From the NCBI GenBank assembly GCA_903919455.1, contig CAIXIJ010000110.1, positions 1 to 64,000 on the forward strand: a stretch of 64,000 nt of DNA, given 5' to 3'. The position numbers and the translations under genes are program-made. Positions 5,225 through 22,899 of the stretch are shown here, one piece after another (positions within the stretch are counted from its first letter, which is position 1; every line of letters starts with the position of its first letter). The notes beneath the pieces are model-generated. The model had not been told where the DNA came from and ran no database searches. It was given only the letters and a program-made list of their open reading frames with translations. Source of the DNA: an uncultured Acidimicrobiaceae bacterium (GTDB taxonomy: Bacteria; Actinomycetota; Acidimicrobiia; Acidimicrobiales; Ilumatobacteraceae).

Positions 5225-6594
5225 CCGGCGTGTCGATGCAGAACCGTCGCCCGCTCACCGGATGGGGCCGCACTAACGCCACCGTGGCCGAGGTGATCGA
5301 GGTGCCCAACCATGAGGTCGCCGCCGCCGTAAAGGAGGCGGGGCCTCGAGGCGCGCTCGTGCGCGGGTTGGGACGCAGCTATGGCGACGCCGCGCAGAAT
5401 GCCGGTGGGCTGGTGCTGCGCCTCCTCGGGTCTGCGCATCAGGCAGTGCTCGACCCTTCGTTGGCCACCGTCACCGTGCCGGCTGGTGTGAATCTGGATG
5501 AACTGCTGCGGGTGCTCGTGCCGCGTGGCTTCTTCGTGCCGGTCACGCCCGGCACCCGGTTCGTCACCATCGGCGGGGCGATAGCCAGCGACATCCATGG
5601 CAAAAATCATCACGTGGAGGGCTCGTTCGGCAATCACGTGCGAGCGCTCACGCTGTTGCTTGCAGATGGTTCCACCGTGGTGATCGGGCCCCAGCAGCAG
5701 CCTGAGTTGTTCTGGGCCACGATCGGCGGCATGGGCCTCACGGGCGTGATCCTCGACGCCACTGTGGGGCTGCTGCCCATCGAGACCAGTCGCATGTCGG
5801 TTGATACGACCCGCATCCCCGATCTCGACGCTCTGTTCTCCGCGATGAGCGACGGCGACGACGACTTTCGCTACAGCGTGGCCTGGATCGACCCCCAGGC
5901 GAAAGGACGTCATCTCGGCCGCAGCGTGCTGGGCCGCGGCGACCACGCCCGCCTCGACCAATTGGGCCCGAAGGAACTGCTCTCGCCATTGGCGTATGGC
6001 CCCAAGCAGCTGGCCTCGGTGCCGCCGTTGGTGCCGCCGATGGGTGTGATCAACCACGCAACGGTGGCCGCGTTCAACGAGGTGTGGTACCGAAAGGCCC
6101 CACTGCATCGTGAGGGAGAGCTGAAAGGCATCGCCGGGTTCTTCCACCCGCTCGACATGGTGTCGAGGTGGAACCGCGTGTACGGCTCGAGCGGCATGGT
6201 GCAGTATCAGTTCGTCGTGCCGTTCGGTGAGGAGGAAGCGATGCGAACCGTCATCGAACGACTCTCGGTGAGCGGCGCAGCGAGCTTCCTCGCCGTGCTG
6301 AAGCGTTTCGGTGCAGGTAACGATTCGCCGCTGAGCTTTCCCGCGCCGGGATGGACGCTGGCGCTGGATGTTCCCGGCTCCGCTCGCGGTCTGGCCGATC
6401 TACTCCACGGTCTCGATCGACTGGTGCTCGACGCCGGTGGCCGCCACTATTTCGCCAAGGACGGTCGCACCACTGCGGCGGCCATTCGACAGGGCTATCC
6501 CCGCCTCGAGGAATGGAAGGCCGTACGCGATTCGGTCGATCCTGAACATGTGTGGCAGAGCGATCTGTCGCGCCGCCTCGGCCTCACCGACTGA
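5212..6594 (+). CDS. dprE1: Decaprenylphosphoryl-beta-D-ribose 2'-oxidase
   Basis: An FAD enzyme of the VAO family that oxidises decaprenylphosphoryl ribose at C2', the first half of the epimerisation to DPA. It aligns with M. tuberculosis DprE1 over nearly its whole length: LTGWGRT near the N-terminus, RGLGRSYGDAAQNAGGLV, PGTRFVTIGGAIASDIHGKN, FHPLDMVSRWNRVYGSSGM and YFAKDGRTT, including the conserved Tyr and Lys around the substrate. The benzothiazinone-reactive Cys387 is Ala here (codon 6361-6363, PGWTLALD). ATG 5212 gives an N-terminus as long as the mycobacterial one and overlaps the previous gene by 13 bases; GTG 5230 or ATG 5236 are alternatives. Confidence 0.93.
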   Translation: MAILTGVSMQNRRPLTGWGRTNATVAEVIEVPNHEVAAAVKEAGPRGALVRGLGRSYGDAAQNAGGLVLRLLGSAHQAVLDPSLATVTVPAGVNLDELLRVLVPRGFFVPVTPGTRFVTIGGAIASDIHGKNHHVEGSFGNHVRALTLLLADGSTVVIGPQQQPELFWATIGGMGLTGVILDATVGLLPIETSRMSVDTTRIPDLDALFSAMSDGDDDFRYSVAWIDPQAKGRHLGRSVLGRGDHARLDQLGPKELLSPLAYGPKQLASVPPLVPPMGVINHATVAAFNEVWYRKAPLHREGELKGIAGFFHPLDMVSRWNRVYGSSGMVQYQFVVPFGEEEAMRTVIERLSVSGAASFLAVLKRFGAGNDSPLSFPAPGWTLALDVPGSARGLADLLHGLDRLVLDAGGRHYFAKDGRTTAAAIRQGYPRLEEWKAVRDSVDPEHVWQSDLSRRLGLTD

Positions 6595-6608
6595 CCACGA
6601 AGGACACC

Positions 6609-7370
6609 ATGGACAACGCACTTGGCGAACCCCAGACCATCCTGCTGCTGGGTGGAACCAGCGATATCGGATTGGCCATCGTGCGGGAGGTGCTCAGCCC
6701 CGGTGCTCGCACCGTGGTGCTCGCCTGTCGCAATGTGGAGAAGGGCGAACTGGCCGCTGCAGGTTTGCGGCACGGTGGGCTCGCTGTGCATGTCGTGCAC
6801 TTCAACGGCTCCGACACTGCGAGTCACGAGCAGGTGATTGCCGATGTCGTGGCGCAGCATGGCGACATCGACCTCGCCATTCTTGCGTTTGCTCAGTTGG
6901 GTGATGGTGCGGTCACATCAAAGGACGTGCAGGCTGCGTCGGAGATCGCCCACGTGAACTTCACCGGCACCGTCAGCGCCACGATTGCAGTGGCGAATCG
7001 CATGCGCGGCCAGGGGCACGGGGCCATCGTGATGCTCAGCAGCGTGGCGGGCGAGCGCGTTCGGGCGGCCAACCCGGTGTACGGCGGCACCAAAGCTGGT
7101 ATCGACGGCTTCGCTCAGGGCCTGGGCGACGCGCTTGCTGCCGATGGCGTCCACATGATGGTGGTGCGGCCTGGCTTCGTGCATTCGGCCATGACGCAGG
7201 GTTTGAAGGCGGCGCCGTTCTCGACGACGCCCGAACAGGTGGCCGCCGTGACAGCGAAGGGTCTGCGCGCCGGCCGCCGCACCGTGTGGGCTCCCGGCAT
7301 TCTGCGGTATGTGTTCTCTGCTCTTCGCCACGTTCCGGGTCCGGTGTGGCGTCGATTGCCCCTCGGCTGA
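6609..7370 (+). CDS. dprE2: Decaprenylphosphoryl-D-2-keto-erythropentose reductase
   Basis: A short-chain dehydrogenase that reduces the DprE1 product to decaprenylphosphoryl-D-arabinose with NAD(P)H. From ATG 6609 the protein has 253 residues. Features are the nucleotide motif LLLGGTSDIGLAI, catalytic Ser in LSSVAGERVRAAN, the Tyr-Lys pair in VYGGTKAGIDGF and the C-terminal block VWAPGILRYVFSALRHVPG, which matches mycobacterial DprE2 almost residue for residue. It begins 14 bases after dprE1, as expected of partners that form a complex. Its stop is 3 bases from the stop of the convergent membrane protein gene. Confidence 0.92.
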   Translation: MDNALGEPQTILLLGGTSDIGLAIVREVLSPGARTVVLACRNVEKGELAAAGLRHGGLAVHVVHFNGSDTASHEQVIADVVAQHGDIDLAILAFAQLGDGAVTSKDVQAASEIAHVNFTGTVSATIAVANRMRGQGHGAIVMLSSVAGERVRAANPVYGGTKAGIDGFAQGLGDALAADGVHMMVVRPGFVHSAMTQGLKAAPFSTTPEQVAAVTAKGLRAGRRTVWAPGILRYVFSALRHVPGPVWRRLPLG

Positions 7371-7379
7371 AGTTCAGCC
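7365..7379. terminator. Small palindrome covering two convergent stop codons
   Basis: GGCTGA-AGT-TCAGCC is a 6-bp inverted repeat with a 3-base loop that contains both the dprE2 stop (7368-7370) and the minus-strand stop (7374-7376). It is short, lacks a T-tract, and is at best a weak terminator. Confidence 0.3.
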
Positions 7380-9182
7380 TGCTGCCGCCCGCTTCTTGAG
7401 TTCGGCATCGAAGTCGGCGCGTCGCTGTGCGCCGAGCCCGATGCCAGCGGGGCTCACCCCGTCGCCCTTGTCGCAGCGGTGATAGAGCAGTACCAACGCA
7501 TCGAGATAGTTGCCGACCTGGCAGAAATGATCGGCCACCACCTGGTTGGGTGCGTCGCTGCCGAACGTGCTGGATGCGTTCGGTTCGTACCACCCGGTCC
7601 AGAAGTTGGTGAGGATCAACCAGTCGGCCGTGGCCACATCGTCGGCCAGACGCGACCCTTCCCGGTCGGCCAGGCCCGGGTCCATCTCGATGTAGTACGT
7701 GGCGGGCGCCAGGTCGGGGAACAGGTAGTAGAAGACCACATCGCTGTAGATGGTGCGACTGAGATCTGCGGGGCCCACGAGCAGACGTTCGCCTGGCTTC
7801 ATACCTGCTGCGAGGTCGTTGATGGCGGCTTGGCTGGCGGTTTGCAGCGCAGCATTACCGAAGTAGAAGTTGCGATCGTTGCGTGACACTTCGAAACCAC
7901 CGGGTTTGTTGCCCACGGAGACGCGACTCTGGAGCAGGTAGTACCGGTAGGTGAAGAACGGGCAGATCACGAACATCACCAGGCCCACGACGGCACCGGC
8001 AACCAATGGGGCGTGGCGGGTGACGATGGACCGATTCGGTTGTCCTTCTCCGGGGCGCAGCGAAAGCAGTTCGACCACCACGCAGGGCAACAGCGCGAAC
8101 GAAACGCACGACCCCCAAGCCAGGTGAGTGCTGTCGGGCCGCTGTAGCGCTTGGGGCAGCATGCCGAGGCCGAACAGCGCGCCACCCATGAGCACGGTGA
8201 GGTGGGTGGTCCATCCGTGACGACGAGCGAGGCGCCAGACCAAGATGGGCAGCGCAATGGCGACCGCGATGACGACCCAGAACCAGAAGAACAGTTGGTG
8301 GTTGGCCGACAGGGCCGGGAACTTCCACCACGGGGCATCGGCCGGGCCCTCCGCCACAGCCTGCAACGCGCCGTCGATCTGGCTGAAGCTCGGGGGGCGG
8401 GGAAGTTCGCGACCGGGGCGCAGGTGCAGCACAGGGTCGAGGAACATTCCCTGGAAGCTGGGGCCGACGCCAGCCATGGCGAGATGCACCGCTGTGGGAA
8501 CCAGTCCCACAGCGAGGCCGATGCCAAGTGGCCGCCACACTCGGTTGCCAAGGCGCCGGTGACGAAGCAACAGCCAGGTGTGCACGATGCCGAGTGCCAG
8601 GGCGAGGTCGGGTCGGTAGCCCAGGGCGCAGCCGACGAGGACACCCGTGGCAACCAGCGCAACAGTGCGTGAGCGGCCTTCGGCGTGCAAGGCGCGCACG
8701 CCGAAGACCACGCTCCACAGGCCCAGAGCGATGCCGCCCTCCCACGCCAGCGCTGAGAGGCCGATGGGGGTGAGCACCAGCATGGTGACAGTGACTGCCG
8801 TGATCACCGCAGTGCGATGGCCCCAGGCTCTCGCCAGGGCGTACAGGGCGAAGATGATGCCGACGTGCTGCAGCAAGCCGAACACCCGTTGCGCCTCCAG
8901 CGTGTAGCCGAAGACCGTGTACCAGGCCGCTAGCACATGAATGGAGAAGGGGCCGTAGAGATGGAGATAGTCCACGTTGGGCACGTCGCCGGCGAGCAGA
9001 CGCTTGGGGAAGACCAGCATGAAGCCTTCCTCCATGCTGCTGCCGGTGGCGATGAACAGACCGCGCAAGGGAATGGCTACGACGCCGAGCACCATGGCGA
9101 TGGACAGCGCTCCGCGAGTGGACCACCGCAGTCGCAGCGCCCCGCCGAGTACGAAGGGCTGGTCTGCGTTGACGGCGATCAC
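7374..9182 (-). CDS. Multi-membrane GT-C-type glycosyltransferase-like protein
   Basis: A 602-residue integral membrane protein with roughly ten to twelve hydrophobic helices and a C-terminal soluble part of about 150 residues. Near the N-terminus acidic residues follow the first helix (SSMEEGFMLVF, Glu51-Glu52), and DVPNVDYLHLYGP follows. This is the layout of GT-C transferases that use polyprenyl-phosphate sugars, where the first extracellular loop holds the catalytic acid. A longer frame extends to 9440, but it would run over the divergent GT4 gene. A TAGCAT box at 9191-9196 ends 8 bases before GTG 9182, supporting this start. The sugar and acceptor are unknown. Confidence 0.7.
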   Translation of the reverse strand: MIAVNADQPFVLGGALRLRWSTRGALSIAMVLGVVAIPLRGLFIATGSSMEEGFMLVFPKRLLAGDVPNVDYLHLYGPFSIHVLAAWYTVFGYTLEAQRVFGLLQHVGIIFALYALARAWGHRTAVITAVTVTMLVLTPIGLSALAWEGGIALGLWSVVFGVRALHAEGRSRTVALVATGVLVGCALGYRPDLALALGIVHTWLLLRHRRLGNRVWRPLGIGLAVGLVPTAVHLAMAGVGPSFQGMFLDPVLHLRPGRELPRPPSFSQIDGALQAVAEGPADAPWWKFPALSANHQLFFWFWVVIAVAIALPILVWRLARRHGWTTHLTVLMGGALFGLGMLPQALQRPDSTHLAWGSCVSFALLPCVVVELLSLRPGEGQPNRSIVTRHAPLVAGAVVGLVMFVICPFFTYRYYLLQSRVSVGNKPGGFEVSRNDRNFYFGNAALQTASQAAINDLAAGMKPGERLLVGPADLSRTIYSDVVFYYLFPDLAPATYYIEMDPGLADREGSRLADDVATADWLILTNFWTGWYEPNASSTFGSDAPNQVVADHFCQVGNYLDALVLLYHRCDKGDGVSPAGIGLGAQRRADFDAELKKRAAAG

Positions 9183-9190
9183 GGACGGCG

Positions 9191-9196
9191 ATGCTA
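9191..9196 (-). promoter_or_regulatory. -10-like TAGCAT, leaderless arrangement, GT-C gene
   Basis: On the minus strand TAGCAT ends 8 bases upstream of GTG 9182. That spacing puts the transcription start at or next to the start codon. It decides the start of a gene whose frame stays open far upstream. Confidence 0.5.
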
Positions 9197-9216
9197 GTGA
9201 CCCTTGTGACGTTCGG

Positions 9217-9222
9217 TAGCGT
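9217..9222 (+). promoter_or_regulatory. -10-like TAGCGT, GT4 gene
   Basis: TAGCGT ends 9 bases before ATG 9232. With the minus-strand box at 9191-9196 it forms a compact divergent promoter region of about 50 bases. Confidence 0.45.
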
Positions 9223-9231
9223 TCGTGCGCG

Positions 9232-10392
9232 ATGCCGACGTCGCCCGACCGATCGATCCCCGAACTCGCGAGCGAGATGATCGCCGCTGGTTGCCGCAGG
9301 GTGCACGTGTTGGCGTGGCGCGACCTCGACGATTCGGACGCCGGGGGTTCGGAGGTACACGCCGACCACTTCATGCGGCGTTGGGCCGACGCCGGCCTAG
9401 AGGTGACCCACCGAACGTCGTTCGCGAAAGGTCTTCCCAAGGAGGCTCACCGCAACGGCTATCGCGTGATCCGTAAGGGCGGCCGCGAGACGGTGTTCCC
9501 GCGTGTGATCGCCGCCGAAGCACTGCACCCGGGCCGGTACGACGCAATGGTGGAGGTGTGGAATGGTGTGCCGTGGTTCAGCCCGGTGTGGTGCCACAAG
9601 CCGCGCATCACGTTCCTCCACCACGTGCACGGCCCGATGTGGGACCAGATGCTGCCGGGGCCGTTGGCCTCATTCGGTCGGGCACTGGAGGCCCGCCTCG
9701 CACCGCCGTTCTATCGGCGCACGCGCATGGTGACGCCCAGCGAGGCGACCCGCGATGAACTGCTGGAACTGGGCTTTCGGCCCGAGCGCGTGGTGGCCGT
9801 GAACAACGGGGTGGAGGAGATGTTCCACCCCGGGGGTGAGAAGACTGCAGCGCCCACAGTGGTAGGAGTAGGGCGGCTTGCGCCAGTGAAGCGGCAGGAT
9901 CAGTTGATCGAGCAGGCAGTGATTGCGAAGCGCCGAGTGCCCGACCTGCAACTGATCCTCGTGGGCGAGGGCCCACTGCGGCCAGTGCTCGAGGCACACG
10001 TTGCGCATCACCACGCGCAGGACTGGATACACCTGGCCGGTCGGTTGTCGCACGAGGAACTCATCGCCCTGTATCAGCGGGCATGGCTGGTGGCGAGCGC
10101 CTCGCTCGCTGAGGGATGGGGTCTCACCCTCACCGAAGCAGCGGCATGCGGCACCGCGTGCGTGGCTACCGACATCAACGGCCACAGGAGCAGCGTGGTG
10201 GCCGACGAAACCGGTGTGCTGGCGCCGTTGGAGTTACTCGGCGACACGATGGCCGACGTACTGCTGGACCGCGGCCGACGCGACACGCTGTCGGCAGCCG
10301 CACTGGCTCGGGCGAACACACTCACGTGGGAGGCATCAGCGACGGGCGTGCTGCGCGAGTTGCACGCCCAGGTGATGGCTCGTCACCGCTGA
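9232..10392 (+). CDS. GT4 family glycosyltransferase
   Basis: A GT-B fold retaining glycosyltransferase of 386 residues that uses a nucleotide sugar at the inner membrane face. The N-terminal domain has the acceptor-site signature DAGGSEVHADHF. The C-terminal domain has VGVGRLAPVKRQDQLIEQA, LVGEGPLR and the EX7E nucleotide-sugar motif EGWGLTLTEAAACGTACVAT. There is no membrane segment. It is divergent from the GT-C gene and convergent with the SDR/GMC operon. The donor and linkage cannot be deduced. Confidence 0.85.
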   Translation: MPTSPDRSIPELASEMIAAGCRRVHVLAWRDLDDSDAGGSEVHADHFMRRWADAGLEVTHRTSFAKGLPKEAHRNGYRVIRKGGRETVFPRVIAAEALHPGRYDAMVEVWNGVPWFSPVWCHKPRITFLHHVHGPMWDQMLPGPLASFGRALEARLAPPFYRRTRMVTPSEATRDELLELGFRPERVVAVNNGVEEMFHPGGEKTAAPTVVGVGRLAPVKRQDQLIEQAVIAKRRVPDLQLILVGEGPLRPVLEAHVAHHHAQDWIHLAGRLSHEELIALYQRAWLVASASLAEGWGLTLTEAAACGTACVATDINGHRSSVVADETGVLAPLELLGDTMADVLLDRGRRDTLSAAALARANTLTWEASATGVLRELHAQVMARHR

Positions 10393-10422: not shown

Positions 10423-11466
10423 TCAGCCGGGAAGGATGCGGGTGGCGGTCTTGAGTACCTTCAAGGCGCCCTGCTTGGCGATCGTGCGGTGGTGGCTCTT
10501 GCCGGCATCCGCGGTGGAAGCGCGGTTGACGAGGAACCAGTCGTAGCTATCGGCCAGCGCTTCGGCGTTGGAGTACTTCGGCTGCCAGCCGAGGGCGTCC
10601 TTCACGTGCTGGATGTCGAACCACAGCGACTTGCTGTACATCAACCAGTGGTAGGGGGCGAACGGGGCCAGGTGCAGGCCCGCAGCGGCCTTCATGCCCA
10701 GCGCAGCGGGCCCGGCGGGCAGTGAGCGCACCTTTGATCCGGTGCCGGCATGGGCACACAGTGCCTCGAGTGACTCGCGCATGGTGCCGAAGCGATCGGT
10801 ACCTGCGTTGAACACTGCAGGACCGGGGGTGTCGCCAGCGAGCAGACACACCTCGGCGAGATCGTCTGCGTGGACGAACTGGTAGCGGTTCGAGCCGTCG
10901 CCCAGCACGAAGACGTCGGCGCCATCGGCGATCCATTCGAACAGGATGCCGAAGATGCCGAGACGGCCGTGACCGAGGATGGTGCGGGGCCGCACGATCG
11001 AGACGTCGAGGCCGTCCTTCACCGCATCCAGGCATGCCCACTCTGCGGCGAGCTTGGCGTGGCCGTATTCCTCGGCGGGGGAGGGCACGGTGGACGGCAG
11101 CACCGGATTGCTGCGCGGCACACCGAACACGGCGCTGGAAGACGTGTGCACCACCTTGCGCACGCCGGCGCGTCGGCTGGCGGCGAGCAGCAGTGCGGTG
11201 CCATCTACGTTCACGGTGCGGAGCAGTTCGTGATCCTTGGCCAGCGGTACCTGCGCGACGTTGTTGAACACGATGTCGACGCCATCGACGGCGCGGGCCA
11301 CGGTGGCAGCGTCGCGCACATCACCCTGCACGATCTCCACGTCGCTGGGGCGGTCGTCGACGTCGTTGAGGTCCAGCACGCGCACCTGGTGGCCGGCGGC
11401 CACGAGACGGTGGACGAGCAGCGAGCCGAAGTAGCCGCTGCCGCCGGTGACGAGGCTGACCGTCAC
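10423..11466 (-). CDS. Extended SDR: NAD-dependent epimerase/dehydratase
   Basis: A 347-residue extended short-chain dehydrogenase. It begins with the NAD motif VTGGSGYFGSLLVHRL, has TSSSAVFG with the active Ser, and the Tyr-Lys pair in EEYGHAKLAAEWA. GTG 11466 overlaps the stop of the preceding gene (GTGA), so it is chosen over an in-frame ATG 24 bases upstream. The family includes nucleotide-sugar epimerases and 3-beta-hydroxysteroid-type dehydrogenases. It is the last gene of an operon: small protein, GMC oxidoreductase, SDR, SDR. The C-terminal region (HWLMYSKSLWFD) does not point to a known sugar. Confidence 0.8.
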   Translation of the reverse strand: MTVSLVTGGSGYFGSLLVHRLVAAGHQVRVLDLNDVDDRPSDVEIVQGDVRDAATVARAVDGVDIVFNNVAQVPLAKDHELLRTVNVDGTALLLAASRRAGVRKVVHTSSSAVFGVPRSNPVLPSTVPSPAEEYGHAKLAAEWACLDAVKDGLDVSIVRPRTILGHGRLGIFGILFEWIADGADVFVLGDGSNRYQFVHADDLAEVCLLAGDTPGPAVFNAGTDRFGTMRESLEALCAHAGTGSKVRSLPAGPAALGMKAAAGLHLAPFAPYHWLMYSKSLWFDIQHVKDALGWQPKYSNAEALADSYDWFLVNRASTADAGKSHHRTIAKQGALKVLKTATRILPG

Positions 11467-12509
11467 AGCTCCAGCCCGTTCTCCAGGCACCAGCGGATGC
11501 TGCGGCGCATGCCGTCGTACAGTTCGAAGCGCGGTTGATAGCCGAGCTCAGCGGTAGAGCGACTGATGTCGCACGCGATGGTGTGGCCCATCTCTCCGAG
11601 CACGTGCAGCTGCTGCTGGTAGACGCCAACGGCCTGCAGCATCCGGTCGCCGGTCTCGGCGATACGAGCGGCCAGCACCGGCAGGCGCGTGCTGGGGGGC
11701 TTCACGCTGAGTCCTTCGTCGACCAGAGCCCGTCCGACGGTCTCCACGATTTCGGTGACGGTGTAGGCCCGGCTGTCGGCGATCCAGTAGCCCTTGCCCT
11801 TCGCTGCGGGTGTGAGTTCGGCGGCGAGCACACCATCGACCAGGTTCTCGACGTAGACCATGGAACGGCGCTGGTCGCCCTTGCCGATGACCGGGAACTT
11901 GCCGGCGCGCACCATGCGGAAGAACGTGGTCTGGCGTGGCGGCTGGAAGGGCCCGTAGAACCATGGCGGCCGCACGATGGCGGTGTCGAGGCCCGCCGCC
12001 GCTGCCTCGGTGACGGCAATCTCGGCGAGCATCTTGCTCTTGCCGTAGCCGAGGTACGGGTTGAAGGGTTCGTCGGGCCGAAACGTGTCGGAGTGATCCG
12101 GGTTCGTGCCGAACGGACTGTTCGACGACACGTGCACCAGTCGCCGAACACCGGCGTCGAGCGCGGCTTCGGTGAGGTGGCGGGTGCCGTTGGTGTTCAC
12201 CTCGGTGAATTGGCGGACCGACTTCGGGTGGATGATCCCGGCGGTGTGCAGCACGTCGGCGTCGGCGCCAACCTGGAACAGCAGGCGGCGAGACGTGTCG
12301 GCGCGGCTGATATCGCCGATGATGATGTCGACCCCACTGCGCTCGCCAACAAAGGTCTGGAGCGCCGCAGCATCGGCAGTGCTGTGAGCGAGCAGACGAA
12401 GGTGCGCGCGGTCGGGGTCGGCCAGCAGCCGGTGGACCAGCGCCCGCCCGAGCCAGCCGTTCGCGCCAGTGACCACTGTGGTGGTCGGTGCAATCCAGCG
12501 ATCAGACAC
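11463..12509 (-). CDS. Extended SDR: NAD-dependent epimerase/dehydratase
   Basis: The second extended SDR of the operon, 348 residues, related to but clearly diverged from its neighbour. NAD motif is VVTGANGWLGRALVHRL; the active-site block HVSSNSPFGTN is followed by the Tyr-Lys pair in GYGKSKMLAEIAV. The GTG start at 12509 has a good ribosome binding site (GGAGGA, about 5 bases upstream) and overlaps the GMC stop, so an ATG at 12542 inside the GMC gene is rejected. Substrate unknown; the adjacent GMC oxidoreductase suggests oxidation or epimerisation of a shared alcohol or sugar substrate. Confidence 0.8.
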   Translation of the reverse strand: MSDRWIAPTTTVVTGANGWLGRALVHRLLADPDRAHLRLLAHSTADAAALQTFVGERSGVDIIIGDISRADTSRRLLFQVGADADVLHTAGIIHPKSVRQFTEVNTNGTRHLTEAALDAGVRRLVHVSSNSPFGTNPDHSDTFRPDEPFNPYLGYGKSKMLAEIAVTEAAAAGLDTAIVRPPWFYGPFQPPRQTTFFRMVRAGKFPVIGKGDQRRSMVYVENLVDGVLAAELTPAAKGKGYWIADSRAYTVTEIVETVGRALVDEGLSVKPPSTRLPVLAARIAETGDRMLQAVGVYQQQLHVLGEMGHTIACDISRSTAELGYQPRFELYDGMRRSIRWCLENGLEL

Positions 12510-13956
12510 GGGTTCCTCCAGTTGCGACGAAGCGTCGGGCATTGCGGATGGCGAAGGCCATCACGGACGCCTGCGGGTTCACCCCAGGCGCGGTGGGCAG
12601 CAGCGAAGCGTCGTTGACGTAGATGTTGCGTTGACCGTGCACGCGGCCGAACGAGTCGGCACCACAGGTCTCGGTGACCTCGCCCATCGGCACGGTACTG
12701 CACAGGTGGACCGTCATCACGGTGGCCTTGGAGGCGCGGAAAGCCTGCTGCATGGTGGCCACGTCGCGGCGATTCCGAACCGAGGGGGCGCCCTTGAAAG
12801 AGGGGAACACTTCTTCGGCTTCAGCCTCGAGCATCAACAGGGTGAGGCGAGCGAGTCCGCTTCGAAGGAGTTCTCGATCGCGGTGGGTGAGCCGGTAGGT
12901 GACAATCGGGTCCTTCATGTGCGGCACCGAAGTGACCCGTCCGCGCCCCTCGCTGGTAATGGCGGCATAGTAGACGCTCATCCGTTCCCAGTCGGTGACG
13001 GCACGGCGAAAGGTGGCCCACTGATCGAGCAGGCTCAGCGCAATGAGACCGGGATTGCTGGCCGAACCACCGAACGACAGGTGCGGAGCGAACTCCTTCA
13101 CCTGATGCACCGGCACGTCGTCGGGCACGTTGACAGCATCGGCGAACCTGGCTGCCAACTTCACCGTGGGATGCACCGCCAGCGTGCGCCCGATGTGGCC
13201 GTGAATGCCCGATCGTTGCAGCAGTGCTGGCGACTGGATGGCGCCACCACAGACGAACACATGCTTGAAGGTGATGCGCCCGGGCGACCCGTCGGCGAGC
13301 GTGGTGACAGCAGCGGCGGCAGTGCCGTTGCGCACTTCGAGGTGATCGACACGGCACCCGACGGCAAGGCGGGCGCCTGCCGCCATGGCTCGGGGAAGGT
13401 ACGTCCGCGTCATCGATTGGCGCTCGCCCTTGGTGGCGTCGTCGCCGTGCGGATAGGTCATCCAGCGAGGGACCTCACCGTGCTGCCAGCCGAGCGAAGC
13501 GGCGCCGCTGCGGAGGATCTCGCTGGGTGCGCTGTGGGGGCCCGGCACGTTGCGGACGTTGATCGCGGTCTCGACTTCGTCGGCGATCGAGAGCAGTTCG
13601 TGTGGATCGAAGTCGCGAATCGCGAACTCCCGCTGCCAGCGTTCCAGCAGTTCGCCGGGCGGCCGCCAGTAGAGCCCGCTGTTCACTTCGGTCCCGCCAC
13701 CAGCGCAGCGACCTTCGGTGTAGGCGATTGACGGCATACCGAGGGCCACGGTGACGCCGCCTGCCCGATACTGCTGTTCCATCTGGTCGAGGGAGAACGG
13801 CACAACGGCGCCTTGCTCGACCCATTTGCCCTCTTCGACCATCAGTACGTCCATGCCGGCCTCGGCGAGCACGGTGGCGGTGGTGGCACCGCCGGCGCCA
13901 CTTCCGATGATGAGGATTTCGGCGTCCATGTTGGCGGTGGCCTGCTGCGCGCTCAT
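12502..13956 (-). CDS. GMC-family FAD oxidoreductase
   Basis: A 484-residue flavoprotein of the glucose-methanol-choline oxidoreductase family, oxidising an alcohol group. The N-terminal FAD motif is IIGSGAGGATTATVLAEAG and the next block is RCAGGGTEVNSGLYWR. The second family signature is CGGAIQSPALLQRSG. The C-terminal half has HLCSTVPMGE and the terminal VNDASLLPTAPGVNPQASV, with the His and Asn used in catalysis. Its ATG overlaps the stop of the small upstream gene (ATGA). No signal peptide is visible. A sterol or polyol substrate is possible; context within a glycan locus leans towards a sugar or lipid-linked substrate. Confidence 0.85.
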   Translation of the reverse strand: MSAQQATANMDAEILIIGSGAGGATTATVLAEAGMDVLMVEEGKWVEQGAVVPFSLDQMEQQYRAGGVTVALGMPSIAYTEGRCAGGGTEVNSGLYWRPPGELLERWQREFAIRDFDPHELLSIADEVETAINVRNVPGPHSAPSEILRSGAASLGWQHGEVPRWMTYPHGDDATKGERQSMTRTYLPRAMAAGARLAVGCRVDHLEVRNGTAAAAVTTLADGSPGRITFKHVFVCGGAIQSPALLQRSGIHGHIGRTLAVHPTVKLAARFADAVNVPDDVPVHQVKEFAPHLSFGGSASNPGLIALSLLDQWATFRRAVTDWERMSVYYAAITSEGRGRVTSVPHMKDPIVTYRLTHRDRELLRSGLARLTLLMLEAEAEEVFPSFKGAPSVRNRRDVATMQQAFRASKATVMTVHLCSTVPMGEVTETCGADSFGRVHGQRNIYVNDASLLPTAPGVNPQASVMAFAIRNARRFVATGGTRV

Positions 13957-14352: not shown

Positions 14353-16083
14353 GTGCTGGAACGCCTCCGCCGCTGGCGGCCCGATGTGGTGGTGACTGCG
14401 GTGTGGGCTGTCGCTGTGCTGCCCGTGCTGGTGGCAGCGGCTCGAGCCATTGCGCAGCATTGGCGCCCCATCGGCGACAACGCCTTGGTGGCACTTCGTG
14501 CTCACGACGTGTTCACCTCGCATCAGCCGCTCCTCGGTACCTGGAGCTCGGCATCGCTGGAGGCGGGCAAGGATCTCAACCACCCTGGACCGCTGCTGTT
14601 CGAATCGGTGGCCCTGCCGGTGAAGTTGTTCGGCAGCAACCTCGGACTGGTGATCGGGGTGGCAGCCGTGAACATCCTGGCCATCACCACCATCGCAGTC
14701 TTTGCGTTCCGGCGGGCGGGCCGTCTCGGTGCCGTGCTGTTACTGCTCGGAGCTGTGTACATGGAGTTCGTGATGGGCAGCGAGTTGCTGTTCGATCCGT
14801 GGAACCCCCACATTCTGATCCTCGCCTGTCTGGCGATGCTCACCTGCGCATGGGGGGTGGCGGCGGGAGATTCCTGGGCGCTACCGGTGTATCTGGCGCT
14901 TGGTTCGTATTGCGTGCAGACCCACTTGGGCTACTCGTATCTCGTGCCCGGTCTGCTGTTGGCCGCGTTGGCGTTTCGCTTGGTGGGGCGTCGCGAGGTG
15001 ACGAAGCGCGAATGGTGGTGCAGCGCCGGCGTGCTTGCGGTGCTCTGGGCGCAGCCACTGGTGGAGCAGTTCTTCGGCGAAGGCGAAGGCAACCTGTCCC
15101 GAGTGCTGGGCGCGCGGGGATCCGACGGGTTGAAGATCGGCCCGTCGCTTGGCATGCGCCTGTTCGCTTCGGTGGTCACCCGTCCGCCGTGGACCGCTCG
15201 TGCAGGGTTCACCGAGGCGTTACCGTTCACGGGCTACGAGAGCCCTGGGGTGTTGAAGCCTCTTGCGGTGATGGGCGGCACCGAGGCTGTGCTGCGCCTG
15301 TTGGCGGCCGTGGTGGTGATCGGGGTTGCGCTGTACATCGCTCGCCGACGTCGCGACACGCCTGGGCTGCTGATGGTGGCAACGGCAGTTGCGGCGTTGA
15401 CGGTGGCGTTGGCCTCGATGGTGATCATGCCCGTTGGCCCCATCGGGTTGACGGCGCACCAAATGCGCTGGCTGTGGCCCATCAGCGTGTTCGCACTCTG
15501 CAGCGTGGTGCTGGTGGTCGTGCGGAGTGTGGCTCCCGAGGTGCCTGCGGTATGGGCCGGTGCGGCATTCGCTGGTTCGGTGGCAGTACTGACGCTGCCC
15601 GCCTATGTGCAGCCTGCCGGCCCCAGTGCTCGGCGCGACCTGATACCGGTGGTGGCAGCGCTGCAGGACCAGATGGGCCCCTTGGAGGGCATCGGCACGG
15701 TGTGGCTGGACACCACGCGCACCCCGGCTTTCGACAACTTCGATGCGGCGGTGATGTTGGAGCTGCAACGTCGCAACGTGCCGTTCGTGGTGGACGAGCC
15801 AGGGTTGGTGCGCCAGGTGGGCAACGACCGTCGCCTGGCAGGCAACGCCGACGTGCAGCTGTATCTGGTGCGTGGGCGTGAGGTGCTGCATCCGCCGGAG
15901 GGAACCGACCGCGTTGCCATCGCCGTGTCCATGAGCAATGACGAGTTCGCCGAGCTCACCGATTTGGATCTGTTGGCCGTCGATGGCGCCGGAATGACCG
16001 CGGATGAACAGGCTCGCTACGACGAGTTGCTCGCCAAGGCCGACGTCGGCTCGGTGGCCGTGGTGATCAGCCCGATTTCCTGA
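14353..16083 (+). CDS. Multi-membrane GT-C-like protein (paralogue A)
   Basis: A 576-residue protein with about ten to twelve membrane helices. After the first helix come IGDNALVALRAHDVF and NHPGPLLFESVALP, then DPWNPHILILA and LGSYCVQTHLGY. The same pattern (acidic residue and R-x-x-D, HPGP, PWNP, QTH) recurs in the protein at 18024-19862, so the two are paralogues. First-loop acids and polytopic topology suggest a polyprenyl-phosphate-dependent glycosyltransferase of GT-C type, but no characterised family is recognised. The 3' end overlaps the convergent GT2 gene by 17 bases. A promoter-like TAGCAT supports the GTG start. Confidence 0.65.
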   Translation: MLERLRRWRPDVVVTAVWAVAVLPVLVAAARAIAQHWRPIGDNALVALRAHDVFTSHQPLLGTWSSASLEAGKDLNHPGPLLFESVALPVKLFGSNLGLVIGVAAVNILAITTIAVFAFRRAGRLGAVLLLLGAVYMEFVMGSELLFDPWNPHILILACLAMLTCAWGVAAGDSWALPVYLALGSYCVQTHLGYSYLVPGLLLAALAFRLVGRREVTKREWWCSAGVLAVLWAQPLVEQFFGEGEGNLSRVLGARGSDGLKIGPSLGMRLFASVVTRPPWTARAGFTEALPFTGYESPGVLKPLAVMGGTEAVLRLLAAVVVIGVALYIARRRRDTPGLLMVATAVAALTVALASMVIMPVGPIGLTAHQMRWLWPISVFALCSVVLVVVRSVAPEVPAVWAGAAFAGSVAVLTLPAYVQPAGPSARRDLIPVVAALQDQMGPLEGIGTVWLDTTRTPAFDNFDAAVMLELQRRNVPFVVDEPGLVRQVGNDRRLAGNADVQLYLVRGREVLHPPEGTDRVAIAVSMSNDEFAELTDLDLLAVDGAGMTADEQARYDELLAKADVGSVAVVISPIS

Positions 16084-17266
16084 ATCGGGTGCGTTCGACG
16101 CCGGTGGGTGTGGCGCGTCGTCGGAACACCCAGCTTCGCAACAACGTGAAGCGCACGAGCGCCATCACGCCCCACACGCCGATGAGGGCCAGCACCTCGA
16201 CGAACAGGCTGCCGTCGTTGGCCACTACGACGGCCAGCGCACCCGTACTGAGTGCCAGGCCGACCGCCCAGACCGCGGCTGCTCCGACGTACTGGTGCCC
16301 GCGGTCGCTGCGGCCACGATGGCCGAAGGTGTAACGACGATTCGCCCACACATTGATCACCGACGTGATGGTGAAGGCCACGACGTTGGCCCAGATGGTG
16401 CCCAGAGGCTCTCGTAGCAACAGGAAGAGCGCCAGACACGCCACGGTGCTGAACACGCCCACGAACGCAAAACCCACCAGGTGGCGGCCGAAGTCGTCCT
16501 CGATGCGCTCTCGCGCAAGTGGCCCGAGTGGCGCCTGCTTCTGGCCGGCTGCGAACGCGCGGAACATTCGGGCCATGCCCTTGATGTCCTGACGCACGGT
16601 GGAGCGGATGTGCACGCGGGTGTCGGGGTCGTCGATCCAGTCGACGGGCACTTCATGGACGCGTAAGCCGTTGTGCTCTGCGAGCAGCAGCAGTTCAGTA
16701 TCGAAGAACCATTCGTTGTCGTCCACCATCGGGAGGAGCACTCCGGCGATGTCGCGTCGGATGGCCTTGAAACCACACTGGGCATCACGGAAACGGTTCA
16801 GGAACACGGTGCGCAACATGCGGTTGTAGGTGCGACTGATGAACTCTCGCTGCGGGCCGCGAGCCACCGCGGCGCCGGGGGCGAGTCGCGAACCGATGGC
16901 GAGATCGCTGTGGCCGGACAGCAGGGGTGCCACGAGCGGGAGGAGGGCGGACAGGCCGGTGCTGAGGTCCACATCCATGTATGCGACCACTTCGGCATTG
17001 CTGGCAAGCCAAGCCGCCTTCAACGCGCGCCCACGGCCTTTGCGTTCCAGATGCATGAACTGCACGCCCGGAAATGTGGCTATCAGCTCGTTGGCAACGG
17101 CGGCCGTTCGATCGGTGCTGGCGTTGTCGACGATGGTGATCCGCCAACTCAGGGGGAAGTGCTGGGTGAGGTAGGCGTGGAGGCGAGCGATGCTCGTAGG
17201 CAGGACGTGTTCCTCGTTGTACACGGGCACGACGACGTCGACGGTGGGGGCGGGTTGGCTCGGCAT
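16067..17266 (-). CDS. GT2 glycosyltransferase fused to a GtrA-like membrane domain
   Basis: A 399-residue two-domain protein. Residues 1 to about 250 form a GT2 GT-A domain: VVVPVYNEEHVLPTSI, VDNASTDRTA, the DxD-type MDVDLS and a C-terminal VPVDWIDDPDTRVHI. The rest is a four-helix GtrA-like module (FAFVGVFSTVACLALFLLL, VINVWANRRYTF), as in enzymes that charge a polyprenyl phosphate with a sugar and help flip it. Such a protein could supply donor to the neighbouring GT-C transferases. ATG 17266 is preceded by TACGCT at 9 bases; the frame is open further upstream but would run into the divergent gene. Confidence 0.85.
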   Translation of the reverse strand: MPSQPAPTVDVVVPVYNEEHVLPTSIARLHAYLTQHFPLSWRITIVDNASTDRTAAVANELIATFPGVQFMHLERKGRGRALKAAWLASNAEVVAYMDVDLSTGLSALLPLVAPLLSGHSDLAIGSRLAPGAAVARGPQREFISRTYNRMLRTVFLNRFRDAQCGFKAIRRDIAGVLLPMVDDNEWFFDTELLLLAEHNGLRVHEVPVDWIDDPDTRVHIRSTVRQDIKGMARMFRAFAAGQKQAPLGPLARERIEDDFGRHLVGFAFVGVFSTVACLALFLLLREPLGTIWANVVAFTITSVINVWANRRYTFGHRGRSDRGHQYVGAAAVWAVGLALSTGALAVVVANDGSLFVEVLALIGVWGVMALVRFTLLRSWVFRRRATPTGVERTRFRKSG

Positions 17267-17275
17267 CCGGTCCGC

Positions 17276-17281
17276 AGCGTA
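17276..17281 (-). promoter_or_regulatory. -10-like TACGCT, GT2-GtrA gene
   Basis: On the minus strand TACGCT ends 9 bases before ATG 17266. It is 9 bases away from the plus-strand box at 17291-17296, so the divergent pair shares a 38-base intergenic region. Confidence 0.4.
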
Positions 17282-17290
17282 GTCAGCCGC

Positions 17291-17296
17291 TAGCCT
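17291..17296 (+). promoter_or_regulatory. -10-like TAGCCT, polyprenol-phosphate mannose synthase gene
   Basis: TAGCCT ends 8 bases before GTG 17305. No ribosome binding site is visible, which fits a leaderless transcript. Confidence 0.5.
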
Positions 17297-17304
17297 CGCG
17301 GCCC

Positions 17305-18027
17305 GTGCGCACGCTCGTGGTTCTGCCCACCTACAACGAAGCCGACAACATCGCCGACTTCCTCGCTGCGGTGCGTGGCGCTGCGCCGAACGCCAACATC
17401 TTGGTGGTCGACGACAACAGTCCGGATGGCACCGGTGCCATCGCCGAACAGTCGGCTGCATCCTTGGGCAACATCGCGGTGCTGCACCGCGCTGGCAAGG
17501 CGGGGCTCGGTGCGGCCTATCGACATGGCTTCGCTGTGGCGTTCGAGGAGGGGTACGACGTCATCGTCTCGATGGACAGCGACTTCTCTCACGACCCGAT
17601 GGTGATACCCGCGATGGTGACGTTGATCGAGGGTGGCGCCGACGTGGTGGTGGGCTCTCGGTACGTTCCCGGTGGCGGCACGGTGAACTGGCCGATTCAT
17701 CGTCGCCTTCTGTCGCGATGGGGCAACCGGTACACCGGGTTCGTCCTGCGAATGAAGGTGCGTGATTGCACGAGTGGTTTTCGCGCCTACCGGGCGTCGT
17801 CGCTGAAGGCGGCCGATCCGGGGTCCACGACAGCGGAGGGCTACTCCTTCCTCACCGAACTGGTGCGCAAGATGTCTCGCAACGGGGCCGTGGTGGTGGA
17901 GACCCCGATCATGTTCCGAGATCGCGAGAAGGGCGTCTCGAAGATGTCGGGTCGCATCGTGGTGGAGTCCATGGTGCGGGTGACGGGCTGGGGTGTGCGC
18001 GACCTGTTCAACCGGCAGTCGTCGTGA
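17305..18027 (+). CDS. Polyprenol-phosphate mannose synthase-like GT2
   Basis: A 240-residue GT2 enzyme with strong similarity to dolichol/polyprenol-phosphate mannosyltransferases (the Dpm1/Ppm1 catalytic domain). Key motifs are VLPTYNEADNIADFL, VVDDNSPDGTGAIAEQ, the metal-binding SMDSDFSHDP, VVGSRYVPGGG and DCTSGFRAYR. There is no membrane anchor. It would make polyprenyl-phosphate-mannose from GDP-mannose as donor for GT-C enzymes nearby. Its TGA overlaps the GTG of the next membrane protein, a coupling that suggests that protein may use its product. Confidence 0.85.
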   Translation: MRTLVVLPTYNEADNIADFLAAVRGAAPNANILVVDDNSPDGTGAIAEQSAASLGNIAVLHRAGKAGLGAAYRHGFAVAFEEGYDVIVSMDSDFSHDPMVIPAMVTLIEGGADVVVGSRYVPGGGTVNWPIHRRLLSRWGNRYTGFVLRMKVRDCTSGFRAYRASSLKAADPGSTTAEGYSFLTELVRKMSRNGAVVVETPIMFRDREKGVSKMSGRIVVESMVRVTGWGVRDLFNRQSS

Positions 18028-19862
18028 AGTGGCGGGCCTGGCAGATCGGCCTGCTGTCGGCCGTGGTGGTCGGGCTGCCGTTGCTGATAGCCGCTGTCGT
18101 CCTTCATGGCCGCCACTACTCGCCGGTCCTCGACCTGGCGATGACGGAGTTCCGAGTTCGTGACGTAGGTGGTGGGCACACCCCATTGATCGGCCTGCCG
18201 GGTCGAATCGGCAACTTTCCCGACCAGGGCAGCCATCCCGGCCCAATGAGCTTTTACCTCGTGGCGGTTGGCTACCGACTGCTCGGGGCCAGCGCATGGG
18301 CGATGCTCGTCGGCTCGATTCTGGTGAACATCGCCGCGCTTGGCACGGCGGTGGCGCTGGGCTTCCGCCGCGGCGGGTGGTGGATGGCTGGCGCAGTAAG
18401 CGTGTGGCTGCTGCTGGCGATGCGCGGGTACGGCGTGGGCGTGTTGACGCAGCCATGGAACCCGTATCTGCCGTTGGTGGCATGGACCGTGGTGGTGCTG
18501 GCCACATGGATGGTGCTGGAGGGCGACCATCTCATGTTGATTCCGCTCGTGGGGGCAGGATCGCTGTGCGCCCAGACCCATGTCCCGTATCTGCTGCTGT
18601 GCGTGGGGCTGTTCTCGGTGGCCGCCGCGGTCAGCCTGGTGCGCTGGCGCAAAGGAACTCCCGGGGTCATTCGTTCGCTCGCGTGGGCAGTCGGAGTTGG
18701 CGTGGTGCTGTGGCTGCCGCCGTTGGTGGACCAGGCTGTGCACAGCCCCGGCAACATCCGCATGCTGCAACAACACTTCATGCACCCTCCGGAGGAACCC
18801 ATCGGCATGGTGGCCGGACTGAAGGTGCTGCTGCGTCACCTCGACGTGGTGCACGCAGTGTTCGGTGGCAGTGCGGGCGGGTTCGTGCAGGCTGCGTATC
18901 AGGCCGATCGCTCGGTGGTGCCCGGTGTGCTGCTGCTGCTGGTGTGGGCCGGCGCAGTGGTGGCGGCCATACGGATGCGGCATGGAGCGTTGCTGTGGCT
19001 GCACGCCACGCTGGGTGTCACGCTGTTGCTCGAAGCGATGTCGATGGTGCGCATCTTCGGCAAGGTCTGGTTCTATCTCACCTTGTGGGCGTGGAGCGTC
19101 ACAGTGCTGATGGCCATCGCCAGTGCTGCCACGTATGTGGTGGCGTTGCGCCGATGGAAGGGCGACGACTCCCGTCGTCCGCTGCTCCTTGGCGCTGCGG
19201 GATGCGGTGCGGTGCTGGCGCTGTTCAGTTTCATTTCCCTTACCGTGGCCGCGGCAGATGCGCAGGTGCCCGAACCGCGACTGTCCACCCCGCTCGGCGA
19301 GGTCGTGGTGCCTACGGTGAACGCCATTACGGATGGTGTCGGTGCTGCCGTAGGACCCGATGGCAATTACGTGGTCACATGGAGCGATGCCTACTTCTTC
19401 GGGTCGCAGGGCTACGGACTGGTGAACGAGCTCGAGCGTGCCGGCCTGCACGTAGGCGTGGACCCGACCTTCCATGTGCCGGTGACCCCCCAACGCGTGG
19501 TGGACCGGTCTGCGGTCGACGCCCAGGTACATCTGTCCACCGGCGTGTACATCGACCAGTGGAAGGCGCTGCCGGATTCCGTGCAGGTGGCCTACTTCGA
19601 CGGGCGCACTCCGGCAGAGGTGGACGAATACGATCGGCTGCGCACGGATGCCATCGACGGGCTCACCTCGGCCGGACTCGATGATCTGGTCGACCTCGTG
19701 GATGTGAACCTGTTCGGGGTGTCGCTCGACCCACGCCTGCCTGCCGATGTGCAAGCCGACATGGCTCGGATGCTCATTATCGGTCAGCCGATAGCGGTGT
19801 TCATCACGCCGGCGAGCACCGTGGCGACGGCAGCAGCGCCCAGCCAGGACAGCACCACCTGA
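18024..19862 (+). CDS. Multi-membrane GT-C-like protein (paralogue B)
   Basis: A 612-residue polytopic protein translated from GTG 18024, overlapping the stop of the mannose synthase-like gene. It shares with 14353-16083 the ordered landmarks LDLAMTEFRVRDV, SHPGPMSFYLVAVG, TQPWNPYLPL and GSLCAQTHVPYLL. A C-terminal extracytoplasmic part of about 200 residues follows the last helix. The pairing with a polyprenol-phosphate mannose synthase suggests a mannosyl- or related transferase at the outer face of the membrane. No characterised homologue is recognised. The last 79 bases overlap the convergent acyltransferase gene. Confidence 0.65.
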   Translation: MKWRAWQIGLLSAVVVGLPLLIAAVVLHGRHYSPVLDLAMTEFRVRDVGGGHTPLIGLPGRIGNFPDQGSHPGPMSFYLVAVGYRLLGASAWAMLVGSILVNIAALGTAVALGFRRGGWWMAGAVSVWLLLAMRGYGVGVLTQPWNPYLPLVAWTVVVLATWMVLEGDHLMLIPLVGAGSLCAQTHVPYLLLCVGLFSVAAAVSLVRWRKGTPGVIRSLAWAVGVGVVLWLPPLVDQAVHSPGNIRMLQQHFMHPPEEPIGMVAGLKVLLRHLDVVHAVFGGSAGGFVQAAYQADRSVVPGVLLLLVWAGAVVAAIRMRHGALLWLHATLGVTLLLEAMSMVRIFGKVWFYLTLWAWSVTVLMAIASAATYVVALRRWKGDDSRRPLLLGAAGCGAVLALFSFISLTVAAADAQVPEPRLSTPLGEVVVPTVNAITDGVGAAVGPDGNYVVTWSDAYFFGSQGYGLVNELERAGLHVGVDPTFHVPVTPQRVVDRSAVDAQVHLSTGVYIDQWKALPDSVQVAYFDGRTPAEVDEYDRLRTDAIDGLTSAGLDDLVDLVDVNLFGVSLDPRLPADVQADMARMLIIGQPIAVFITPASTVATAAAPSQDSTT

Positions 19863-21675: not shown

Positions 21676-22899
21676 ATGGACGTTTCGCCCTCCGCCTCGC
21701 CAGCGCGGCAATCCATGTTGCTCTGTGTGCTCCTCGGGGCTGCGGTACGTATTGCGTATCTCGCCACGCACTGGGGTGACAAATTGCTCCTCAACGACTC
21801 CTGGTACTACAGCGAGCAGGCGCGTCAGTTGGCGCATGGCACGTTCTTCCGGGAGATCTTCTACGACCAGCCGGGGGCCGAGCACGGGCCCCTGACATCG
21901 ATCCTGTTGGCCCCGGTGAGCTACACGAGTCACTATCAGGACTTCCAGCGTGTGGTCACGGTCGTCGCAGGCATCGCGCTGGTATGGGTGATCGGACGAT
22001 TCGCCGAAGAGCTTGTCGGGCCCGAGGTCGGGCTGCTGGCCGCCTTCATCGCCGCGGTGTATCCAAATCTGTGGATGAACGATGGCCTGGTGATGTCGGA
22101 GAGCATCAGCATGTTGCTGGTTGCGCTGTGCATGTGGGCCGCGTGGCGAGCAGATCATTCGCCGGCAGCGCGTGGTGTGGCAGTAGGCGCGGCGCTCGGG
22201 TTGGCAGTGCTGGCACGAAGCGAGCTCGTGCTGTTCGCGCCGCTGGTGTTGATGTGGCTGGTCTGGGCTCATCGTCGAAAGGCACTCGTGGCCGCCAGTT
22301 GTGCGGCGCTGGTGGTGTTGCCGTGGGTGGGTTTCAACCTGCTTCGGTTCGAGAAGCCCGTCGTGTTGACGACGAACGACGGCACGACGTTGCTCGGGGC
22401 GAACTGCCCGCAGACCTACAGCGGCAAGCATTTGGGCGGTTGGCTGGTCACCTGCGTGGCAGACGATCCGGCGTTCGACCCGGCGGAGGAGCCCAGCGTC
22501 CGCTCGGCGAGGCAGCGCAGCCTGGGTGTGCACTTCGCGCTCGATCACGCCCAGCGTCTGCCCGTCGTTGCCGCGGCGCGGCTTGGGCGCTCGCTCGACG
22601 TGTACGCACTCGAGGACACCATCTTCCAAGATGTCGGCGAGGGACGTCCGAAGTTCTTCAGTTGGCTCGGTGTGGTCCTCTTCTGGGGCATGGCAGTGGT
22701 GTCGGTGTTCGGCGCCCGAATGCTGGATCGGCGTCGGCGTGTCCTCTTGCTGATCTCCGTTGCGACGGTGCTGACGACTTCAGTGCTGTTCTATGGGGCG
22801 CACCGAATTCGCTCGTCCGCCGAACCGTCGCTCGTGATCCTCACCGCCGTGGCCCTGGTTCAGTGGTCGCGGCCCGTCAAGCGTGCTGAACCTTCGTGA
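21676..22899 (+). CDS. GT39/ArnT-like membrane glycosyltransferase
   Basis: A 407-residue polytopic protein of the PMT/ArnT (GT-C) superfamily. The first extracellular loop has LNDSWYYSEQARQLA with the catalytic-type Asp, then YDQPGAEHGPLTSILLAP. MSESISMLLVALCMWAA is the usual Ser-Glu loop-helix of the family, and AVLARSELVLFAPLVLMW follows. It uses a polyprenyl-phosphate sugar as donor. It overlaps the next acyltransferase gene by 4 bases (GTGA). The acceptor is unknown. Confidence 0.8.
   Translation: MDVSPSASPARQSMLLCVLLGAAVRIAYLATHWGDKLLLNDSWYYSEQARQLAHGTFFREIFYDQPGAEHGPLTSILLAPVSYTSHYQDFQRVVTVVAGIALVWVIGRFAEELVGPEVGLLAAFIAAVYPNLWMNDGLVMSESISMLLVALCMWAAWRADHSPAARGVAVGAALGLAVLARSELVLFAPLVLMWLVWAHRRKALVAASCAALVVLPWVGFNLLRFEKPVVLTTNDGTTLLGANCPQTYSGKHLGGWLVTCVADDPAFDPAEEPSVRSARQRSLGVHFALDHAQRLPVVAAARLGRSLDVYALEDTIFQDVGEGRPKFFSWLGVVLFWGMAVVSVFGARMLDRRRRVLLLISVATVLTTSVLFYGAHRIRSSAEPSLVILTAVALVQWSRPVKRAEPS

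Follow-up and report, generated by a model that had tools for sequence, protein, structure and literature searches.

An unclassified, predicted GT-C glycosyltransferase family with two old paralogues in an arabinan-type locus of an Ilumatobacteraceae bacterium

The locus described here raises the question of what reaction is carried out by two related polytopic membrane proteins that match no named family and bracket two putative synthases of lipid-linked sugars. It lies in a 64,000-nucleotide stretch of an uncultured aquatic Acidimicrobiaceae bacterium (Ilumatobacteraceae; assembly GCA_903919455.1, contig CAIXIJ010000110.1, positions 1 to 64,000), which as a whole is called the window and from whose first letter all coordinates are counted. 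We refer to the two proteins as A and B and to the enzymes between them as P3 and P4 (Table 1). An original prediction, made from the DNA letters alone, had assigned A and B to an uncharacterised family of glycosyltransferases (GT) of the GT-C class, with P3 and P4 as their matched donor synthases. Our analysis indicates that A and B are anciently diverged members of a real, well-conserved and unclassified GT-C family that sits in an arabinan-type locus; the enzyme class was right and the donor pairing overconfident. Most likely, A and B use a lipid-phosphate donor to add arabinofuranose (or a hexose) to a glycan of the cell surface.

The coordinates and frames first proposed for A and B are correct, an ATG at 14317, 12 codons upstream, being also possible as the start of A. 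The two proteins share 35% identity over 226 amino acids (aa; BLASTP expect value E 3e-25), far above chance, and the profiles of the A and B families align with probability 100 and E 6e-48 over 530 columns, which bears out their paralogy. The landmarks occur in both in the same order, namely an acidic residue followed by R-x-x-D (D42 and R49-x-x-D52 in A; D37 and R44-x-x-D47 in B), HPGP (residues 77-80 and 71-74), PWNP (149-152 and 144-147) and QTH (189-191 and 184-186). No family of Pfam or NCBIfam covers either protein, all of the few matches listed being far below the cut-off. Attempts to link A and B by sequence to a GT-C family with a name were given up, since nothing beyond matches far below the cut-off came from Pfam, NCBIfam, the PDB sequences (a set that included the solved AftB and PimE; GT87 and GT89 were covered further by Pfam scans only) or an hhalign comparison with ArnT. 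Neither ArnT nor AftA, AftB, AftD or Emb was among the PDB sequences matched by the A and B profiles at E <=10, and the AftA, AftB, AftD and Emb families are absent from the Pfam matches of A, B and their aligned relatives. PMT_2 (PF13231) and PTPS_related (PF10131) were not matched by A or B themselves; among 32 B-like relatives, eight match the former (best 2.7e-5) and five the latter (best 8.5e-8) at E <=1.

The enzyme class is indicated by the predicted structures. AlphaFold gave models with a predicted local distance difference test (pLDDT) score of 87.1 and a predicted template-modelling (pTM) score of 0.90 for A, and of 88.5 and 0.89 for B; both predicted models show a helical core with a large loop after helix 1, as expected for the GT-C fold. 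The best PDB match found by Foldseek was the aminoarabinose transferase ArnT for both (A, E 2e-5; B, E 1.2e-7), and the GT-C entries among the Foldseek matches listed had probabilities of 0.57-1.00, mostly >=0.9. In a second structural comparison, all 50 matches listed for A were GT-C enzymes or a GT-C-like subunit of the glycosylphosphatidylinositol (GPI) transamidase, as were 48 of the 50 listed for B. ArnT (5ezm/5f15, GT83) aligns with both models from helix 1 as far as the C terminus, with Z 16.2 over 428 residues for A and Z 15.8 for B; it differs in that A and B show no sequence-profile similarity to it (hhalign probability 0.3% and 0.5% against the Escherichia coli protein). The best structural match of B was a protein O-mannosyltransferase (Pmt1-Pmt2, Z 18.2 over 357 residues; the group also comprises Pmt4 and PMT_2), and B shares its fold with the mycobacterial arabinofuranosyltransferases AftA (Z 16.0), EmbB (12.5), AftD (11.8) and AftB (11.3). 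Both models also resemble oligosaccharyltransferase and ALG enzymes; some of the chains in this comparison were identified by their entry titles. With a GT-C-like predicted fold, no family model and a loop-1 acidic residue retained in all sequences compared, the proposal of an uncharacterised GT-C family is supported, and A and B are very probably lipid-phosphate-dependent GT-C transferases.

Conservation was examined in 110 of 202 open reading frames kept after removal of near-duplicates, plus the window proteins, of which A was already included, giving 111 distinct sequences. The loop-1 position, whose invariance had been put forward as a check, is acidic in all 111, with Asp in 108 of them and Glu in the other three. 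In R-x-x-D, Arg is found in 107 and the second acid is Asp in 105 or Glu in two; QTH keeps its Gln in 109 and its His in 109, and Asn244 (B numbering) is invariant (111/111). HPGP and PWNP are present in both paralogues and are held less strictly than originally suggested, because HPGP, although its Gly occurs in 110 sequences, has Asn in place of His in 31, and PWNP has Gln in place of Asn in 37. Glu42 of B is invariant in the 32 B-like sequences and corresponds to Ala47 in A, and it is therefore no family-wide catalytic residue. Helix 1 is preceded by positively charged residues, which suggests an extracytoplasmic position for loop 1. By analogy with GT-C enzymes (PMC8035078, PMC11127046), we propose that the loop-1 Asp (D42 in A, D37 in B) activates the acceptor hydroxyl, the sugar being provided by a lipid-phosphate donor that sits between the membrane and loop 1. 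A comparable case, likened here by description and not by sequence, is GT136 (Citrobacter ORF12), a GT-C enzyme that works with a lipid-phosphate pentofuranose and has a proposed catalytic Asp, D31, whose D31A variant is inactive (excerpts of PMC11127046); in the same excerpts it differs by an extra carbohydrate-binding module and by a MATE flippase in its three-component system.

The setting of A and B bears on the donor. The original prediction had missed that the window also encodes genes of the decaprenyl-phosphate-arabinose pathway and an AftD-type protein (the chains 6w98 and 6wbx, which match it, we take to be AftD). In mycobacteria, the phosphoribosyltransferase, DprE1 and DprE2 lie on the route to decaprenyl-phosphate arabinofuranose, the arabinan donor, and DprE1/DprE2 homologues are tied to arabinofuranose-bearing glycans (both from excerpts of PMC11127046). 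Since all three are predicted in the window, gene content places A and B in a near-complete locus for the arabinan donor, if the phosphatase of the pathway is left aside. The window locus thus has the phosphoribosyltransferase, DprE1, DprE2 and AftD in common with the mycobacterial arabinan system, whereas Emb (PF04602) and AftA (PF12250) have no match in the host genome and are each absent from 64 of the 65 genomes of the class that match the B profile (the sole matches, sought in these genomes only, being Emb in G002 and AftA in G205). Among 14 control genomes, the Emb and AftA models matched in Corynebacterium glutamicum alone.

Relatives of A or B occur in 58 of 150 genomes of the host's taxonomic family. 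The B profile was built from 32 B-like proteins (alignment A1) and the A profile from 29 A-like proteins (A2); both alignments left out partial or N-containing matches and the full-length L036 (which resembles L033, a likeness left unchecked), and three rows of A2 (L005, L013, L026) are cut short in sequence. In a sample of 296 genomes of the class, 65 match the B profile, 67 the A profile and 68 either, a count that includes a marginal match (G327, E 4.5e-4) and in which some matches belong to the family only distantly and are not A or B proper, some of the 65 being A-like (e.g., G002); strong B matches (>=480 bits) are found in 29. Nine of 296 genomes of a phylum sample match, all nine in the same class (the share of that sample from outside the class was not counted), and close relatives from named genomes belong for the most part to records of Acidimicrobiaceae and Ilumatobacter. 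In searches within the phylum, the family is found only in a single class of actinobacteria, which the record titles of named relatives identify as Acidimicrobiia. A tree of 112 rows, in which A occurs twice, split perfectly into 64 B and 48 A sequences with support 1.0, a clean split that is partly expected, as the labels were taken from profile scores. Both types are present in distant families of the class (e.g., G151, G288 and G291), and the duplication is therefore old. One locus (L128, G050:C168) carries two B and two A genes.

The family co-occurs with the arabinan genes. At E 0.001 the DprE1 model lacks specificity, matching 240 of the 296 genomes and 10 of the 14 controls (one of them over the cut-off), and matches over the cut-off were therefore counted. 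In the class sample, DprE1 is over the cut-off in 102 genomes and AftD is found in 111. Of the 68 genomes with the family, 59 have DprE1 over the cut-off, or 61 if weaker and partial matches are included, against 43 (49) of the 228 others; AftD is found in 63 of 68 against 48 of 228; among the 29 strong-B genomes the figures are 26 (27) and 27. The three genomes added by the A profile lower the DprE1 figure. Because related genomes are not independent, we recounted by taxonomic family (55 families), obtaining 19 of 23 against 8 of 32 for DprE1 (p 3e-5) and 19 of 23 against 14 of 32 for AftD (p 0.005), the same counts being obtained with the 65 B-profile genomes. The DprE1 link survives this count and the AftD link is weaker.

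From the computed homology, predicted fold, invariant acid, co-occurrence and locus content, we infer a direction of transfer, donor, acceptor and polymer as follows. On the outer side of the membrane, A and B would each use a polyprenyl-monophosphate donor and add its sugar to a surface glycan as this grows. The donor would be decaprenyl-phosphate arabinofuranose, for whose supply the locus carries genes, and the sugar would go into an envelope glycan of the arabinan kind, A and B possibly standing in for the AftA and Emb of mycobacteria. Because the locus has its own donor supply and AftD, with Emb and AftA nearly absent from the family-bearing genomes, arabinofuranosyl transfer appears as the most likely role, and we tentatively favour the reading of A and B as arabinofuranosyltransferases for such a glycan. 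That arabinofuranose is the donor sugar of at least one of them may likewise be proposed with caution. The wider proposition that many Acidimicrobiia build a D-arabinan-type envelope glycan from decaprenyl-phosphate arabinofuranose with AftD and without Emb or AftA, for which A and B, a new CAZy-level GT-C family, are the missing priming and polymerising arabinofuranosyltransferases, we consider less likely than not.

Several observations weigh against arabinofuranosyl transfer. The fold fails to tell donors apart, the best match of B being a mannosyltransferase with ArnT and AftA close behind, and the co-occurrence test falls short of a full phylogenetic correction. The dependence is one-way, as DprE1 and AftD occur together in 27 of the 228 genomes that lack the family; two genomes (G351 and the marginal G327) carry the A/B family with neither gene, and two others (G308, G334) have AftD without DprE1. 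For a cultured strain of the Acidimicrobiia, which may or may not carry the locus, excerpts of PMC12263773 give rhamnose, ribose, mannose and galactose as whole-cell sugars with no mention of arabinose; the word arabinose was not found in the passages searched of other Acidimicrobiia papers, and passages of the literature searched held no cell-wall sugar data for Ilumatobacter. Finally, P4, which resembles a mannose-phosphate-lipid synthase, adjoins B more often than any other gene does and in the window shares letters with it, which points to a hexose donor. The evidence on the donor is thus split between arabinofuranose (locus, co-occurrence, missing Emb and AftA) and hexose (the adjacent P4 and P3), and one paralogue could serve each donor type.

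The most serious alternative follows from these synthases: P4 would make polyprenyl-phosphate hexose (probably mannose) for B, P3 would make and flip another lipid-linked sugar for A, and arabinose would be handled only by AftD or other enzymes. The predicted nature of both enzymes held up on examination. P3 has a Glycos_transf_2 and a GtrA domain, as the proposed GT2-GtrA fusion demands, and is likely a polyprenyl-phosphate sugar synthase plus flippase; the only PDB match of P4 at E <=1e-10 is a dolichol monophosphate mannose synthase (E 6.6e-34). P4 and B overlap by GTGA, the TGA of P4 (18025-18027) sharing letters with the GTG of B (18024-18026), and A and P3 are convergent, P3 and P4 divergent. 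Synthase, GtrA and GT-C together form an established layout, that of multi-component transmembrane glycosylation with a GT-A synthase (excerpts of PMC8035078), from which the present locus, with its GT2, GtrA domain and GT-C proteins, differs in that the P3-A and P4-B linkages are inconsistent across relatives. We compared 42 chosen neighbourhoods with 44 B and 31 A genes (the window and L077 left out), for which the score thresholds and a limit of 400 bases were our own choice and in which adjacency counts are lower bounds, because many neighbourhoods end at contig ends. The direct neighbours of B were P4 in 21 of 44 cases (16 on the same strand), A in 18, AftD in eight and GT4 in five, whereas P3 adjoins A in only 5 of 31; the exact order A-P3-P4-B was found only in L003, a relative with a 95% identical B, the commoner orders being P4-B-A and P4-B. 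P4 relatives occur in all 25 genomes tested, and close P4 orthologues (331-343 bits) are present in four of five B-less genomes of the same genus, whereas two B-bearing genomes (G098, G007) have no close orthologue (>300 bits) and only a more distant relative. P4 adjoins GT4 in three B-less loci (L154, L157, L158), and in L159 and L160, from two B-bearing genomes, it adjoins AftD with B elsewhere in the locus. Because P4 persists without B and adjoins GT4 or AftD elsewhere, it is tied to the locus and not just to B. The matched-synthase part of the original prediction is thus weakly supported by the P4-B adjacency, and P3 and P4 as strictly matched donor makers are weakened by the orthologue distribution and the neighbourhood counts; a hexose for each of A and B by this route we hold to be somewhat doubtful.

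A second alternative is that A and B are polymerases or ligases acting on diphospholipid-linked sugars or oligosaccharides, of the WaaL/Wzy or oligosaccharyltransferase type. Oligosaccharyltransferases, which use diphospholipid donors, share the GT-C fold, so that such a use is compatible with the fold alone; a weak similarity to Wzy_C (E 0.0059) appears in one of the 32 B-like proteins, and the FtsW complex (Z 5.9) and WaaL (Z 5.7) are the last two of the 50 structural matches listed for B. These lie far below the top GT-C entries (Z 14-18), in contrast to the best matches Pmt, AftA and ArnT, which use monophosphate donors, and this alternative is improbable. A transporter role for A and B, as flippases or MFS-like proteins, is most improbable: polytopic as the two are, the transporter chains low among the Foldseek matches listed had probabilities <=0.21 and TM scores <=0.18, far from the GT-C values; the predicted structures show no transporter fold, the outcome named beforehand as refuting a GT-C assignment, and the second comparison listed almost only GT-C enzymes, on which grounds we rejected this reading.

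If A and B are indeed arabinofuranosyltransferases, arabinan-type envelope chemistry would not be confined to the mycobacterial lineage, the part that differs being an unclassified GT-C family; arabinan priming and extension without Emb or AftA would be explained, a non-pathogenic comparison for Emb and AftA would become available, and proteins unnamed in Pfam and NCBIfam would gain a function. Even with a hexose donor, they would represent a new GT-C sequence family in a recurrent genomic setting. No PMC paper joining Acidimicrobiia, GT-C and glycosyltransferase was found (subscription papers and preprints lay outside the scope), none of the DprE1/AftD papers matched in PMC mentions Acidimicrobi-, and further PMC searches gave nothing on arabinan or GT-C in Acidimicrobiia among the matches listed.

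Table 1. Features of the window discussed in the text, in order of position.
Feature	Position	Strand	Evidence or remark
UbiA-type decaprenyl-phosphate phosphoribosyltransferase	3630..4499	+	NF008978, 356.6 bits (cut-off 207)
DprE1, decaprenylphosphoryl-ribose oxidase	5149..6594	+	NF053785, 598.8 bits (cut-off 500); chain 4aut, E 5.4e-125
DprE2, decaprenylphospho-2-ulose reductase	6552..7370	+	NF053786, 314.9 bits (cut-off 250)
Unclassified protein next to DprE2, polytopic by eye, start uncertain	7374..9299	-	No family match
GT4 glycosyltransferase, often near B or P4	9232..10392	+	Family scan and neighbourhoods
SDR1, NAD-dependent epimerase family	10423..11490	-	Family scan and neighbourhoods
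SDR2, NAD-dependent epimerase family	11463..12542	-	Family scan and neighbourhoods
GMC oxidoreductase	12502..13956	-	GMC-SDR2-SDR1 genes recur near B
A, polytopic protein with predicted GT-C fold, 576 aa	14353..16083	+	GTG start; loop-1 Asp42, R49-x-x-D52, HPGP, PWNP, QTH
Codon of A Asp42, proposed catalytic acid/base, first extracytoplasmic loop (predicted)	14476..14478	+	Aligned position D 108/111, E 3/111
P3, GT2 (PF00535) fused to GtrA (PF04138)	16067..17266	-	Pfam
P4, GT2, dolichol-phosphate-mannose-synthase-like	17305..18027	+	Glycos_transf_2; stop overlaps B start (GTGA)
B, polytopic protein with predicted GT-C fold, 612 aa	18024..19862	+	GTG start; loop-1 Asp37, Glu42, R44-x-x-D47, HPGP, PWNP, QTH
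Codon of B Asp37, proposed catalytic acid/base, first extracytoplasmic loop (predicted)	18132..18134	+	Same aligned position as A Asp42
PMT_2 (GT-C) protein	21676..22899	+	PF13231, E 2.1e-9
AftD-type protein, 1408 aa	27393..31619	-	PF11847, E 5.4e-89; 6w98 and 6wbx nearly full length, E ~1e-27
PMT_2 / PIG-V-like GT-C protein	31538..32797	-	Family scan

Other genes of the locus showed further features. In the DprE1 of the window, an alanine appears by eye, in the alignment to 4aut, at the position of the cysteine known as the covalent site of nitro-benzothiazinones, and these compounds may therefore be poor probes in the host organism. The protein encoded convergently with DprE2 (7374..9299) matches nothing in Pfam or NCBIfam at E 0.001 and no PDB sequence, and its strong homologues (667 and 637 bits) lie beside DprE2 in the B-less loci L154 and L157. 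The GMC gene and the two overlapping SDR genes (10423-13956, minus strand) form a block that recurs near B, with GMC in 25, SDR1 in 28 and SDR2 in 29 of the 44 B neighbourhoods, and the block may supply redox or epimerising chemistry for the same glycan. Next to AftD, positions 24982-27396 encode an 804-aa protein with a spermidine-synthase-like domain, homologues of which occur in five of the 44 B neighbourhoods. Two AftD genes lie side by side in a congener that lacks B (L154/L155, G010:C13).

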